From contig NZ_QDDR01000003.1 in the NCBI RefSeq assembly GCF_003075525.1, forward strand, positions 248,001 to 312,000: a DNA stretch of 64,000 nt. The letters are read 5' to 3'. The notes under the pieces are model-generated. The model ran no database searches and had not been told where the DNA came from. It saw only the letters and a list, made by a program, of their open reading frames with translations. The translations under genes were made by a program, and so were the position numbers. This stretch comes from Pararhodobacter aggregans. GTDB taxonomy: Bacteria > Pseudomonadota > Alphaproteobacteria > Rhodobacterales > Rhodobacteraceae. Of this stretch, positions 39,557 to 48,438 are shown piece after piece. How positions within the stretch are numbered: the stretch's first letter is position 1; every line of letters starts with the position of its first letter.

Positions 39557-40201
39557 ATGACCAAGGCCTATGCAATCGGAGCGGCAACGCTGGTCGCGGT
39601 GATGCTGGCGGGGCTGGCGCTGTTCGCCTATCAGCCGCCGTTCCTGCGCACGATGCTGGGGATGAGCGACGATCCCTTCGACCCCTGCCGCTCGGGCGCG
39701 GTGATGGGGGGCCTCGACCAGATCGGCGGCCCCTTCACCCTGGTCAATGCCCAGGGCCAGACGGTCACCGATCAGGACGTGATGACGATGCCGTCCATCG
39801 TGTATTTCGGCTATACCTTCTGTCCCGATGTCTGCCCGCTGGACAGCGCCCGCAACGCGCTGGCGACCGAATTGCTGGAGGCCGAGGGTCAGATCGTGCA
39901 ACCGGTCTTCATCTCGATCGACCCCGAGCGGGACACGCCCGAGGTGGTCGGCGAATTCGCCTCGATCTTCCATCCGCGGATGATCGGGCTGACCGGCAGC
40001 GACGAGCAGGTCCGGGCGGCGTCGCGCGCCTATCGCACCTATTTCTCGCGGCAGGAGGGCGACGATCAGTATTACCTCGTCGATCATTCGACCTTCAGCT
40101 ATCTGGTGATCCCCGGTCACGGCACGGTCGAGATCTTCCGCCACGACACACCGGCCGAAGAGGTCGCGGAAATCGCGCAATGCTATCTGTCGCGGGTCTG
40201 A
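39557..40201 (+). CDS. senC: SCO-family copper chaperone SenC/PrrC
   Basis: 214 residues. N-terminal membrane anchor (IGAATLVAVMLAGLALFAY) with a periplasmic thioredoxin fold. The copper site is C89, C93 (TFCPDVCPLD) and His177 (YLVDHST). Delivers copper to cytochrome c oxidase and, in Rhodobacter, lies between RegB and RegA and affects their signalling. Confidence 0.95.
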   Translation: MTKAYAIGAATLVAVMLAGLALFAYQPPFLRTMLGMSDDPFDPCRSGAVMGGLDQIGGPFTLVNAQGQTVTDQDVMTMPSIVYFGYTFCPDVCPLDSARNALATELLEAEGQIVQPVFISIDPERDTPEVVGEFASIFHPRMIGLTGSDEQVRAASRAYRTYFSRQEGDDQYYLVDHSTFSYLVIPGHGTVEIFRHDTPAEEVAEIAQCYLSRV

Positions 40202-40302: not shown

Positions 40303-40860
40303 ATGACCGACGACAGCCCGCTCGATCTCGGCCCCGACCCGTCGCTGTTGCTGGTCGATGACGACGAAGTCTTCCTCAAGCGGCTGGCCCGCGCCATGGA
40401 GCGGCGCGGTTTCGCCGTCGAAACCGCCGCCTCGGTCGCCGCTGGCAAGGCGCTGGCCATGGCCCGGCCCCCAGCCTATGCGGTGATCGACCTGCGGCTG
40501 GACGACGGCAACGGCCTCGATGTGGTCGAGGCTCTGCGCCTGAAGCGGCCCGACGCGCGGATTGTCGTACTGACCGGCTATGGCGCGATTGCCACCGCCG
40601 TGGCCGCGGTCAAGATCGGCGCGACCGACTACCTGTCCAAGCCCGCCGACGCCGATGAGGTGGTGAACGCCCTTCTGCAACGCGAGGGCGCCGTGCTGCC
40701 CGAGCCGCCGGAAAACCCGATGTCCGCCGACCGGGTGCGCTGGGAGCATATCCAGCGGGTCTATGAGCAATGCGACCGCAACGTGAGCGAGACGGCGCGC
40801 CGCCTCAGCATGCACCGCCGGACGCTGCAACGGATCCTCGCCAAGCGCAGCCCGCGCTGA
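40303..40860 (+). CDS. regA: Response regulator RegA/PrrA/ActR
   Basis: 185 residues. Receiver domain with acidic pocket DDDE (19–22), phospho-acceptor Asp63 (VIDLRLDDGNG), Thr in VLTGYG and Lys in YLSKPAD. The proline-rich linker LPEPPENPMSADRVRWEHIQRVYEQC precedes the Fis-type helix-turn-helix NVSETARRLSMHRRTLQRIL, virtually invariant in RegA homologs. Global regulator of respiration, photosynthesis, CO2 and N2 fixation in relatives. Its stop abuts the smc stop with no base between. Confidence 0.97.
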   Translation: MTDDSPLDLGPDPSLLLVDDDEVFLKRLARAMERRGFAVETAASVAAGKALAMARPPAYAVIDLRLDDGNGLDVVEALRLKRPDARIVVLTGYGAIATAVAAVKIGATDYLSKPADADEVVNALLQREGAVLPEPPENPMSADRVRWEHIQRVYEQCDRNVSETARRLSMHRRTLQRILAKRSPR

Positions 40861-45417: not shown

Positions 45418-45450
45418 ACCCGTTGCACCTGCGACAATCGGGCGCTTCAC

Positions 45451-45466
45451 ATTCCAAATTTGGAAT
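45451..45466. promoter_or_regulatory. Operator-like dyad 1: ATTCCAAATTTGGAAT
   Basis: Perfect 16-bp palindrome, 57 to 42 bases upstream of the membrane-protein ATG. It fits ATTC-N8-GAAT, the pattern I recall for the persulfide-responsive ArsR-family repressors SqrR/BigR. Confidence 0.6.
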
Positions 45467-45476
45467 GCTATCAAGT

Positions 45477-45492
45477 ATTCCATAACTGGAAT
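45477..45492. promoter_or_regulatory. Operator-like dyad 2: ATTCCA-TAAC-TGGAAT
   Basis: Second ATTC-N8-GAAT dyad, centred 26 bp from the first and ending 15 bases before the ATG. Binding here would block the start region. Confidence 0.6.
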
Positions 45493-45507
45493 ATGTGAGG
45501 TCCCGCC

Positions 45508-46713
45508 ATGTCTCCCACCCGTCCCTCGGACACCTATACGCCAATGTATTTCCTGGCCTCGCTCGGTGCCGGGGGCCTGTCGGTCAGCTTCTTCATGTGG
45601 CTGATGTTCTGGCTGCCGCATCCCGGCCGCACGGTGCCGATCTTCGAGGATATCGCCGCCGCCTTCCAGAGCGGGACACCTCTGAAACAGGCGATGATTG
45701 CTGCGGCGATGGCCGGAATCGCGCTGTTCGTCGTGCTGAATCTGAAATCGCTGCTGTGGAACCTCAGCCACTTCGTCGCCTGGAAACGGACCGAGGCCTA
45801 TGAGAAATTCACCAAGACCAACGCGCAAAGCCAGTTGATGGCCCTGCCGCTGGCGCTGGCCATGTCGGTGAACGGGTTGTTCATCGCCGGGCTGGTCTTT
45901 GTGCCCGGCCTGTGGACCGTGGTCGAATATTTGTTCCCGGTGGCGCTGTCGGCCTTCGTGCTGATCGCCGTGCTGGCCTTCCGCAGCTACGGCGCCTTCA
46001 TCGCCCGCATCAAGGTCGAGGGCGGGTTCAACCACGCCGCCAACAACAGCTTCGGCCAGATCCTGCCCGCCTTTGCCTTTGCCATGATCGGGGTCGGCAT
46101 GGCCGCCCCCGCGGCGATGAGCACCAATGCGGCCGTGGTCGGCCTGTCGATCGTCGCCTCGACCTTCCTGCTGGTGACTTCGGTCCTGATCGCCGGGATC
46201 GCACTGGTGCTCGGCATCCGCTCGATGCTGGACCATGGCACCAATGCCGAGACCGCGCCGACGCTGATGATCCTGATCCCGCTGATGACCATCCTCGGCA
46301 TCCTGATGATGCGGCAGAATCACGGGCTGGGCACCCAGTTCGAGGCGCATACCTCGGACGCCGAGACCTTCCTCTTCCTGGCCAAGGTCGTCTCGGTGCA
46401 GCTGGTCTTCGCGCTCTTCGGCTGGCTGATCCTGTCGCGCCACCAATACGGCAAGCGCTTCATCTGGGGGCGCGAGACCTCGGTCATGAGCTATGCGCTG
46501 GTCTGCCCCGGCGTCGGCTTCACCGTGCTGTGGCAGTTCTTTGTCCACAAGGGGCTGGTCGCGGTGCATCTGGTCGACAAGTTCTCGGCCGTCTACTGGG
46601 CGCTGATCGCGGTGGCGCTGCTGGTGCAGGCGGCGATGGTGGCGCTGGTCTTCACCCTGAACCGGCGCCATTTCGGCAGCCCGCGCGCCGTCGCGGCGGT
46701 GCCCGCCGAATAA
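45508..46713 (+). CDS. Polytopic membrane protein, possibly sulfur-related
   Basis: 401 residues with about ten transmembrane helices (YFLASLGAGGLSVSFFMWLMFWL, AMIAAAMAGIALFVVLNLKSLLW, LMALPLALAMSVNGLFIAGLVF … LIAVALLVQAAMVALVFTLNRR). I do not recognise a proven function; the opening MYFLASLGAGGLSVSFFM recalls a family that pipelines name TsoY, from memory only. The context is suggestive: two ATTC-N8-GAAT dyads directly upstream and a periplasmic DsrE protein gene 165 bases downstream on the same strand. Possible transport of a sulfur compound. Confidence 0.7.
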   Translation: MSPTRPSDTYTPMYFLASLGAGGLSVSFFMWLMFWLPHPGRTVPIFEDIAAAFQSGTPLKQAMIAAAMAGIALFVVLNLKSLLWNLSHFVAWKRTEAYEKFTKTNAQSQLMALPLALAMSVNGLFIAGLVFVPGLWTVVEYLFPVALSAFVLIAVLAFRSYGAFIARIKVEGGFNHAANNSFGQILPAFAFAMIGVGMAAPAAMSTNAAVVGLSIVASTFLLVTSVLIAGIALVLGIRSMLDHGTNAETAPTLMILIPLMTILGILMMRQNHGLGTQFEAHTSDAETFLFLAKVVSVQLVFALFGWLILSRHQYGKRFIWGRETSVMSYALVCPGVGFTVLWQFFVHKGLVAVHLVDKFSAVYWALIAVALLVQAAMVALVFTLNRRHFGSPRAVAAVPAE

Positions 46714-46878
46714 CCGGGGCTTCGGACAAGGACAGGGGCGGCACCGCGCGGGCCGCCCCCTCTGCATTCGTATATGCGCATTCTTTCATTGTGCGGGCCG
46801 GGCAGACATGCCTATCCTGACCCCGGGTTTCGGCCCCGCGCGTTTGGGAGGATGCGCGTCACGAACCGGAGGATTTCC

Positions 46879-47319
46879 ATGCTGAAGACTGCTTTGCGCG
46901 CGACCGGCCTCGCCGTCGCGCTGTCGCTCGCGCCGCTGGCCGCGCTGGCCGAGACGCACCGCGTCGCCTTTCACGTCGACGAGAATGACCCGCAGGTCAT
47001 GAACATGACGCTGAACAACGTGAACAACCTGATCGCCTATTACGCCGAGCAGGGCGACGAGGTGGAGGTGCAGGTCGTGACCTATGGCCCCGGCCTGCAC
47101 ATGCTGCGCGAAGATACCTCGCCGGTGGCGCCGCGCATCGCCCAGATGGCGCTGGAGCATGAGAACGTCACCTTCCAGGCCTGCAACAACACCCTGCAGG
47201 GCATGCAGCGGCAGGCCGGGCACGACATCGCGCTGTTGTCCGAGGCCAATATCGTCCCCTCGGGCGTGGTGCAGCTGGTCACGCTGCAGGAGCAGGGCTG
47301 GTCCTATATCCGGCCCTGA
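46879..47319 (+). CDS. Exported DsrE-family protein
   Basis: 146 residues. Signal peptide LRATGLAVALSLAPLAALA, then a DsrE/F-like fold (HRVAFHVDENDPQVMNMTLNNVNNLIAYYAEQGDEVEVQVVTYGPGLHML) with the single conserved cysteine in FQACNNTLQGM. Cytosolic relatives carry sulfur as persulfide on this cysteine; this one would work in the periplasm. GGAGG precedes the ATG at 46879. Probably functions with the preceding membrane protein. Confidence 0.85.
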   Translation: MLKTALRATGLAVALSLAPLAALAETHRVAFHVDENDPQVMNMTLNNVNNLIAYYAEQGDEVEVQVVTYGPGLHMLREDTSPVAPRIAQMALEHENVTFQACNNTLQGMQRQAGHDIALLSEANIVPSGVVQLVTLQEQGWSYIRP

Positions 47320-47935: not shown

Positions 47936-48280
47936 CTATTCGTCCTTTGGCAGGGGGGCGAGTTCGGTTTCCAGAAACCGCTCGAAGGCGTCCAGGTTCA
48001 GGGGTTCGAACTGCCCGAAGGCCTGCATGAAGACCGAGGCCGCGCGCATCGCGTCGGGCTCCAGCTTGCACCATTTCACCCGGCCGCGTTTCTCCTGGCT
48101 GATGAGCCCGGCCTCGGCCAGAAGCGCCAGATGCTTGGAGACGGCAGCGAGCGAGATGGCGAAGGGCTCGGCCACATCGGTGACGGCCATGTCGTCTTCC
48201 AGCAGCATGCCCAGGATCGCCCGGCGCGTCGGATCGGCCAGCGCCATGAAGATCACGTCAAGAGGATCGGGGGATGCCAT
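47936..48280 (-). CDS. ArsR/SdpR-type winged-helix regulator
   Basis: 114 residues. Winged-helix fold: IFMALADPTRRAILGMLLEDDMAVTDVAEPFAISLAAVSKHLALLAEAGLISQEKRGRVKWCKLEP. Only one cysteine is present, so it lacks the Cys pair of SqrR/BigR and the metal sites of ArsR/SmtB; it belongs to the ligand-unknown SdpR-like group. The start MASPDPLD is chosen by similarity; upstream codons are possible. Upstream neighbour of the F0 genes, divergent from atpI. Confidence 0.85.
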   Translation of the reverse strand: MASPDPLDVIFMALADPTRRAILGMLLEDDMAVTDVAEPFAISLAAVSKHLALLAEAGLISQEKRGRVKWCKLEPDAMRAASVFMQAFGQFEPLNLDAFERFLETELAPLPKDE

Positions 48281-48438
48281 GGCCAAGGGCCTATCCAGCC
48301 CCCGCGCCCCGGTCAAGATATTCAACCGATCCGTTGAATGTGCAGATGCGGCATCGTTAGCGCCCGAAACCCCACGACCCCGTGAAGCACCGGAAAATTT
48401 CCGCTCTTTATCAAAGACTTGCAGGGCAGTATTCGCGC

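Follow-up and report, generated by a model that had tools for sequence, protein, structure and literature searches.

TsoY is a ten-helix membrane protein encoded in a 64,000-nucleotide stretch of Pararhodobacter aggregans DNA (contig NZ_QDDR01000003.1, positions 248,001 to 312,000), here called the window. Its gene lies directly behind two predicted operator dyads for the repressor SqrR. TsoY is probably an SqrR-repressed, persulfide-induced membrane protein that serves as a SLAC1-like channel or exporter for anionic oxidised sulfur. The case for this reading is built from the conservation of the operator, the SqrR orthologue of the same genome, the predicted fold of TsoY, and an invariant cysteine at a position that relatives appear to fill with selenocysteine. 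The principal features are as follows, in window coordinates:

45451-45466, no strand assigned: predicted SqrR operator dyad 1, ATTCCAAATTTGGAAT, an exact ATTC-N8-GAAT
45477-45492, no strand assigned: predicted SqrR operator dyad 2, ATTCCATAACTGGAAT, an exact ATTC-N8-GAAT
45508-46713, + strand: tsoY, encoding a TsoY-family ten-helix membrane protein of 401 residues (NF047644, AlphaFold, Foldseek)
46504-46506, + strand: TGC codon of Cys333 in the CPGV motif of TsoY (alignments; comparison with UxxV)

The tsoY operator and its predicted repressor

The two dyads are spaced 26 bp, and their ends lie 41 bases (dyad 1) and 15 bases (dyad 2) before the tsoY ATG. A preliminary description of this DNA had placed two perfect dyads 26 bp apart ahead of a membrane gene, and both dyads are exact. 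It had also assigned them to the SqrR/BigR pattern; this assignment agrees with the deduced recognition site of Rhodobacter capsulatus SqrR, which is given as ATTC-N8-GAAT in the accessible part of a paper on Escherichia coli YgaV (PMC9774250). The window contains four ATTC-N8-GAAT sites against 0.58 expected from shuffles, and none of 100 shuffles reaches four. Two checks had been proposed at the same time, a genome scan for the dyad and a search for an SqrR homologue with its cysteine pair. The scan returns 27 sites in the whole genome (5.08 Mb) and no occurrence of the reversed pattern.

The dyad is conserved ahead of tsoY homologues. Upstream regions were drawn from 49 loci, 30 further loci of family genomes, and the window, with 79 of 80 usable (L052, with 81 bases upstream, was dropped before the count). 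Thinning left 69 non-redundant upstreams; the window itself dropped out at this stage because L008, a near relative, made it redundant. ATTC-N8-GAAT occurs within 120 bases of the start in 38 of the 69, versus a mean of 0.26 and a maximum of 2 at this spacer in shuffled upstreams, and the remaining spacers between 0 and 16 each occur 0-3 times. Because spacer 8 is enriched in this way over the shuffles, the dyads are not a product of chance. Two perfect dyads are present in 14 of the 69 upstreams. Where a perfect dyad is accompanied by another that has no more than one mismatch, distances of 24-26 bp are the commonest, accounting for 27 of 37 (a count that pairs of two perfect dyads enter twice).

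Upstreams lacking the dyad belong to distant members (Marinobacter, Ectothiorhodospiraceae, and others), to several family genomes, to a Roseibaca-like group in which one-mismatch forms are visible by eye, and to a Nioella-like group. In place of the ATTC dyad, the Nioella-like group (L026, L029, L031, L033, L037) has a TT(A/G)nC-N3-GTCAA dyad, mostly about 80 bases before tsoY (5 of 69 upstreams; shuffle mean 0.04). Another repressor may have taken over tsoY in this group.

The second check succeeded as well: the genome encodes an SqrR orthologue, an ArsR-family protein on contig 1 at 363.9 kb (the L064 protein). Its best match in the PDB is 6o8k (E 1.6e-40), an entry labelled only as an ArsR-family regulator and presumably the SqrR of R. 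capsulatus. The stretch RQAAVSQQLARLRLEGLV is identical between the two proteins and is taken to hold the SqrR recognition helix, and Cys63 and Cys129 of the orthologue align with both cysteines of 6o8k. The dyad also starts 130 bases before a gene for a fusion of Blh and sulfide:quinone oxidoreductase (SQR) in the same genome. Across the family, 8 of 29 blh-SQR genes carry the dyad (the window's genome included, L238 excluded), with none at spacers 4-7 and 9-12; many of the dyad-less genes look operon-internal by eye.

Of 198 family genomes, 152 have an SqrR-like gene (E <= 1e-25). Such genes accompany tsoY in 52 of 53 genomes, versus 100 of 145 genomes that lack tsoY (Fisher p 2e-6, uncorrected for ancestry). 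The sole tsoY genome without an SqrR-like gene (G065) lacks the dyad too. Persulfide regulation of the membrane gene, as first proposed for this locus, is likely because of the match to the SqrR site, the cysteine pair of SqrR, the dyad before blh-SQR, and the conservation of the operator. Judged from these sequences, tsoY is very likely controlled by SqrR, which would bind the dyads upstream of the gene.

Two other occurrences of the pattern are recorded as separate observations. A pair of ATTC-N8-GAAT sites 19 bp apart lies at L066:4064-4098 (G000:C7:9063-9097), near genes that look by eye like an extracytoplasmic-function (ECF) sigma factor and an IclR regulator. A single site at G000:C3:155276 (L077:3277) lies a few bases before a gene that by eye resembles peroxiredoxin.

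Family and predicted fold of TsoY

TsoY is a member of the NCBIfam family NF047644 (TsoY_fam), which it matches with 503.6 bits (cut-off 150) over profile positions 1-378 of 378. Pfam offers no family for it at E-values up to 0.1, and its score of 65.2 bits against the selenoprotein TsoY model NF047643 falls below the cut-off of 250. Codon 333 is TGC and encodes cysteine rather than selenocysteine. The locus had been called an undescribed system; the family already bears the name TsoY, given by NCBI, and what stands of the claim is that no function for it was found in the open-access literature searched, among the matches listed. Sampling placed the gene in 53 of 198 genera of the family to which the window belongs and, across the phylum, in 12 of 398 genomes.

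Tso denotes the "three selenoprotein operon", and the available portion of a review lists the motif UxxV for selenoprotein TsoY in a table (PMC13188914). The window's TsoY likewise has a single motif, CxxV in place of the UxxV listed there. Cys333 lies within CPGV and is the only cysteine of the protein, which makes it the sole candidate for the selenocysteine of UxxV; it appears to fit that position, judged from the motif in the excerpted table rather than from an alignment with selenoproteins. The corresponding column holds cysteine in 40 of 40 aligned TsoY homologues (39 of the 49 loci plus the window's protein). All 41 loci of a second set, which shares members with the first and includes the gene of the window, likewise keep the cysteine. 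Because relatives appear to have selenocysteine at this position, Cys333 is expected to be a chemically reactive residue and would have a role in TsoY. Unlike the Tso system, the window's tsoY is solitary and stands outside a Tso operon as judged from the neighbours read; these were clustered and a few of them scanned, though not against each of the Tso models (TsoA, TsoB, TsoC, TsoR).

The 401-residue reading frame had been described as a ten-helix membrane protein. An AlphaFold model built from 40 sequences agrees, with ten long helices and a mean predicted local distance difference test (pLDDT) score of 91.3. The model has the ten-helix, two-layer arrangement of SLAC1/TehA (PF03595). Foldseek ranks 1-17 are all TehA, SLAC1, or SLAH structures, with probability 1.00, E-values of 2.7e-3 to 4.5e-2, and template modelling (TM) scores of 0.46-0.57 by query length. 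Among the best 50 of 318 matches, three more SLAC1/SLAH structures follow beyond rank 17, and the remainder look unrelated.

SLAC1-type pores are lined by the odd-numbered helices. The invariant residues of TsoY crowd onto its odd helices (32 of 128 positions, versus 7 of 164 on the even helices; p 4e-7), as would be expected if these helices line a pore. A sequence comparison was also made with a SLAC1 set, for which 28 of 30 loci were inspected and 10, those whose reading frame was clean, were aligned. Because this comparison failed, the link between TsoY and SLAC1 is one of fold. From the model, a SLAC1-like fold is assigned to TsoY with high confidence. TsoY shares with the TehA/SLAC1/SLAH proteins (PF03595, TDT family) its ten helices, its predicted overall fold, and its odd-helix invariants, but has no detectable sequence relation to them. 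Fungal Ssu1, a sulfite exporter, is a member of this TehA/SLAC1/TDT family.

Cys333 is located on helix 9 of TsoY. The gate of TehA is Phe262, as stated in the accessible part of its description (PMC3172217), and the alignment shows a proline following it on the same stretch. In a forced full-length profile alignment, Cys333-Pro334 falls on this Phe-Pro pair. In an ungapped register scan Cys333 comes eighth among the positions of TsoY; run reciprocally, the scan puts the gate Phe second. Since the scan does not single out Cys333, the correspondence of Cys333-Pro334 to the gate Phe-Pro is a suggestion, and it is doubtful that Cys333 acts as a channel gate.

Genomic company and proposed role

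The surroundings of tsoY were read in 40 of the 53 tsoY genomes, to about 8 kb in either direction or less where a contig ended; 20 stretches 100 kb away served as controls. An SQR gene falls within this range in six of the 40 family neighbourhoods and in none of the 20 controls, and the six SQRs are 56-57 % identical to a reference copy, itself among the six. SQR is directly behind tsoY in L243 and L276, the latter of which also has SLAC1, and in L248 it is found near tsoY together with SLAC1, peroxiredoxin (Prx), and a dioxygenase-like gene. Two of the controls hold other sulfur-gene matches, a weak dioxygenase-like one in the first and Sox-like ones in the second. The conserved Rhodobacteraceae neighbours of tsoY are mostly housekeeping genes of the smc, rsfS, phoH, and lrgAB type, according to translations read by eye.

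Outside the family, the instances of sulfur-gene company are informative but few. One is L208:1178-9842, a same-strand run that encodes a CsoR-type regulator, Prx, SLAC1, TsoY, a multihaem cytochrome, a protein of the metallo-beta-lactamase (MBL) fold, and Blh-SQR. The SLAC1 and TsoY genes adjoin, the MBL-fold protein is a probable persulfide dioxygenase, and the whole is a putative compact sulfide-response cluster. L042 has an MBL-rhodanese protein, Prx, and rhodanese beside tsoY (the latter two by eye). An SQR-like flavoprotein lies beside tsoY in L039, and a rhodanese, read by eye, in L043. Four loci have Prx genes near tsoY: L042, L208, L248, and, by eye, L051.

In the proposed mechanism, SqrR would occupy both dyads and repress tsoY when sulfide is absent. 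When sulfide is present, SQR would make persulfide, the cysteines of SqrR would become sulfur-bridged, and the dyads would be released; bridging of the cysteines by sulfur and release of the repressor are the mechanism given for SqrR in the available part of its source (PMC9143464). TsoY would then be produced alongside the SQR that bears the same dyad. It would pass an anionic sulfur product (sulfite, thiosulfate, or persulfide/hydrosulfide) over the inner membrane, with export the more likely direction. The reason for supposing that TsoY lets anionic sulfur out of the cytoplasm is its SLAC1-like pore. On the strength of the model, anion transport by TsoY is slightly favoured, and its substrate and direction would be those proposed here. 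Bacteria with a BigR operon secrete sulfite through an exporter, according to the excerpted source (PMC5823870), and an export role of TsoY would be analogous to that of this sulfite exporter. The BigR operon is that of Xylella and Agrobacterium.

Several findings weigh against this account. The Foldseek search gives no match at E 0.001, the superpositions of ranks 1-17 are loose (root-mean-square deviation 5.5-8.0), the sequence relation between TsoY and SLAC1 is not significant (hhalign probability 0.9 %), and Pfam returns no match. The exact dyad is missing from 31 of the 69 upstreams, and L097 lacks it though its genome (G017) has SqrR and carries tsoY directly before SQR. The SqrR orthologue scores 91 bits against the NCBI BigR model, below the cut-off of 155; this model finds no match above its cut-off in any of 14 control genomes. 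Shared ancestry confounds the co-occurrence of SqrR-like genes with tsoY. In 34 of 40 family neighbourhoods tsoY has neither SQR nor a persulfide dioxygenase gene nearby, sulfur genes of any searched kind are present in 7 of 40 versus 2 of 20 controls (no clear difference), and two of three distant members (L206 and L207) are without sulfur-gene company.

TsoY may alternatively be a membrane redox enzyme or sulfurtransferase, in which Cys333 or the selenocysteine of relatives takes up sulfane sulfur and hands it to quinone, thioredoxin, or rhodanese. Selenocysteine usually signals a catalytic role, and its occurrence in relatives of TsoY fits catalysis. SQR, rhodanese, and multihaem cytochrome genes neighbour tsoY in some genomes, and the excerpted review table lists next to TsoY a selenoprotein, TsoB, that resembles a rhodanese/DsbD fusion (PMC13188914). 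However, the Foldseek matches point to a channel-like fold, TsoY has a single invariant cysteine, and no cofactor-binding motif was noticed in it, although no systematic search was made. An enzymatic TsoY is possible but disfavoured.

It can also be proposed that TsoY is an anion channel gated by persulfide, with a SLAC1-fold pore in which a reactive cysteine or selenocysteine replaces the gate residue. Sulfane sulfur on Cys333 or selenocysteine would open or load the pore, so that one signal would both lift SqrR repression and open TsoY. This proposal is unlikely; if true, a thiol or a selenol would form the gate of the channel.

Adjoining genes, additional elements, and wider meaning

Three further features lie around tsoY:

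45431-45445, + strand: possible RegA/PrrA-type box, GCGACAATCGGGCGC (GCGAC-N5-GGCGC), with the right half degenerate in the window
46879-47319, + strand: exported DsrE-family protein of 146 residues with Cys102 (PF02635; MTH1491, 1L1S, E 1.6e-15)
47936-48325, - strand: ArsR-family regulator, SdpR-like and not SqrR (NF033788, 75.5 bits)

The dyads before tsoY could serve another ArsR-type repressor, for example the ArsR protein of 47936-48325 or SoxR, in which case tsoY would answer metals or another signal. The local ArsR gene sits about 600 bp past dsrE, the sites of the ArsR family resemble each other, and the different dyad of the Nioella-like group suggests that the regulator may change. 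However, the local protein is SdpR-like: it exceeds the NF033788 cut-off of 55, scores 63.4 bits against NF033789 SdpR (cut-off 100) and 19 against the BigR model, and has one cysteine. Its gene has a differently spaced dyad at its own start (ATTCAAC-N6-GTTGAAT, 48320-48339), which is probably an autoregulatory site, and its cluster is near tsoY in only two (L006 and L008) of the 49 loci. It was rejected as the tsoY regulator on account of this SdpR likeness, its own dyad, and its rarity near tsoY. The SoxR-like protein of the genome lacks a second cysteine, and blh-SQR is preceded by the same dyad as tsoY, so that a repressor other than SqrR is improbable.

DsrE is separated from tsoY by a gap of 165 bp (46714-46878). 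The longest open reading frame in its frame starts at 46774; the later start at 46879 was chosen because the resulting N-terminus looks like a signal peptide by eye. Its description as an exported DsrE protein with a conserved cysteine is borne out by a match to Pfam PF02635 (25.0 bits, cut-off 22.7) and by the single Cys102, which lies in a C-x-N-T motif shared by all 33 homologues inspected, one of them the copy in the window. The gap contains a GC hairpin without a T-run (z -1.28, equalled by 16 of 200 shuffles), and a terminator scan reported none on the tsoY strand. A sigma-70 promoter scan found no promoter, a result that is weakly informative for a GC-rich alphaproteobacterium. No exact dyad precedes DsrE, neither in the window nor in any of the 33 upstreams.

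DsrE adjoins tsoY in the window and in L005, L007, and L008, or 3 of 49 loci; three others (L023, L041, and L048) stop within some 120 bases past tsoY. None of the 40 family neighbourhoods shows the adjacency, and DsrE is not beside tsoY in the close relatives L006 and L038. DsrE homologues occur in 65 of 198 family genomes, and a check of co-occurrence, also proposed in the preliminary description, was negative: 21 of 53 genomes with tsoY have one versus 44 of 145 without (p 0.23). DsrE instead tracks SqrR-like genes (64 of 65, p 2e-8). Among 20 of the 65 matches (the best after the window's own, some neighbourhoods cut by contig ends), four lie between soxB and soxC in a sox operon, two have a sox cluster at a distance of about 6 kb or less, and the other 14 show no sox gene. 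The window's genome has its own sox cluster on contig 2 at 87.1-97.5 kb, with SoxC at 598 bits (cut-off 420) and the other sox names taken from translations. The window's DsrE shares its domain and C-x-N-T motif with the exported DsrE proteins of sox clusters and with MTH1491 (1L1S), and differs from the soxB-soxC copies of some relatives in its place beside tsoY, outside the sox cluster.

The rare adjacency, the absence of co-occurrence, and the homologues in sox operons indicate that DsrE is probably a Sox-linked periplasmic sulfur-oxidation protein in a unit of its own, and its position beside tsoY looks recent. For the same reasons it was rejected as a partner of TsoY. The two-gene sulfur system with a periplasmic carrier that had first been read from the locus, in which TsoY and exported DsrE would jointly import or export persulfide or thiosulfate, is thus not upheld and is highly improbable, despite the codirectional adjacency in the window and three relatives, the independent ties of both genes to sulfur, and the association of DsrE with SqrR-like genes, and given also the 165-bp gap and the dyad-less DsrE upstreams.

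The RegA/PrrA-type box, of the general form GCGAC-N5-G(T/G)CGC, ends five bases before dyad 1 and is a second conserved element of the promoter. TGCGAC is present in 26 of the 69 tsoY upstreams (shuffle mean 1.93, maximum 6). As a pair, GCGAC-N5-GTC(A/G)C occurs in 6 of 69, with none at spacers 2-4 and 6-9. The box resembles an R. capsulatus RegA site from chromatin immunoprecipitation (ChIP), GCGACCGTTCGTCGC, given in the accessible part of its source (PMC5359404). This sequence likeness suggests an extra oxygen or redox input to tsoY. A RegA/PrrA/ActR response regulator is encoded at 40303-40860 (311.8 bits, cut-off 250), about 4.6 kb upstream of tsoY, and the reading frame ahead of it (39557-40201) is SenC/Sco-like by eye.

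The window's genome shares with the SqrR regulon of R. capsulatus the ATTC-N8-GAAT operator, the SqrR cysteine pair, and a blh-SQR gene with the dyad. The accessible parts of the literature on the SqrR and BigR regulons make no mention of TsoY as a member, and neither its fold class nor its place in the SqrR regulon was found in the open-access literature, among the matches listed. The new element is the prediction of a SLAC1-fold protein with an invariant cysteine, selenocysteine in relatives, under persulfide control. TsoY is a named family with no Pfam match and with a selenocysteine form, and the operator, the anion-channel fold, and the invariant cysteine together give it a first testable role. 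This role would bear on how sulfide oxidisers move the products of sulfide oxidation over the inner membrane, a question that reaches past one organism because 53 of the 198 family genera sampled have tsoY.

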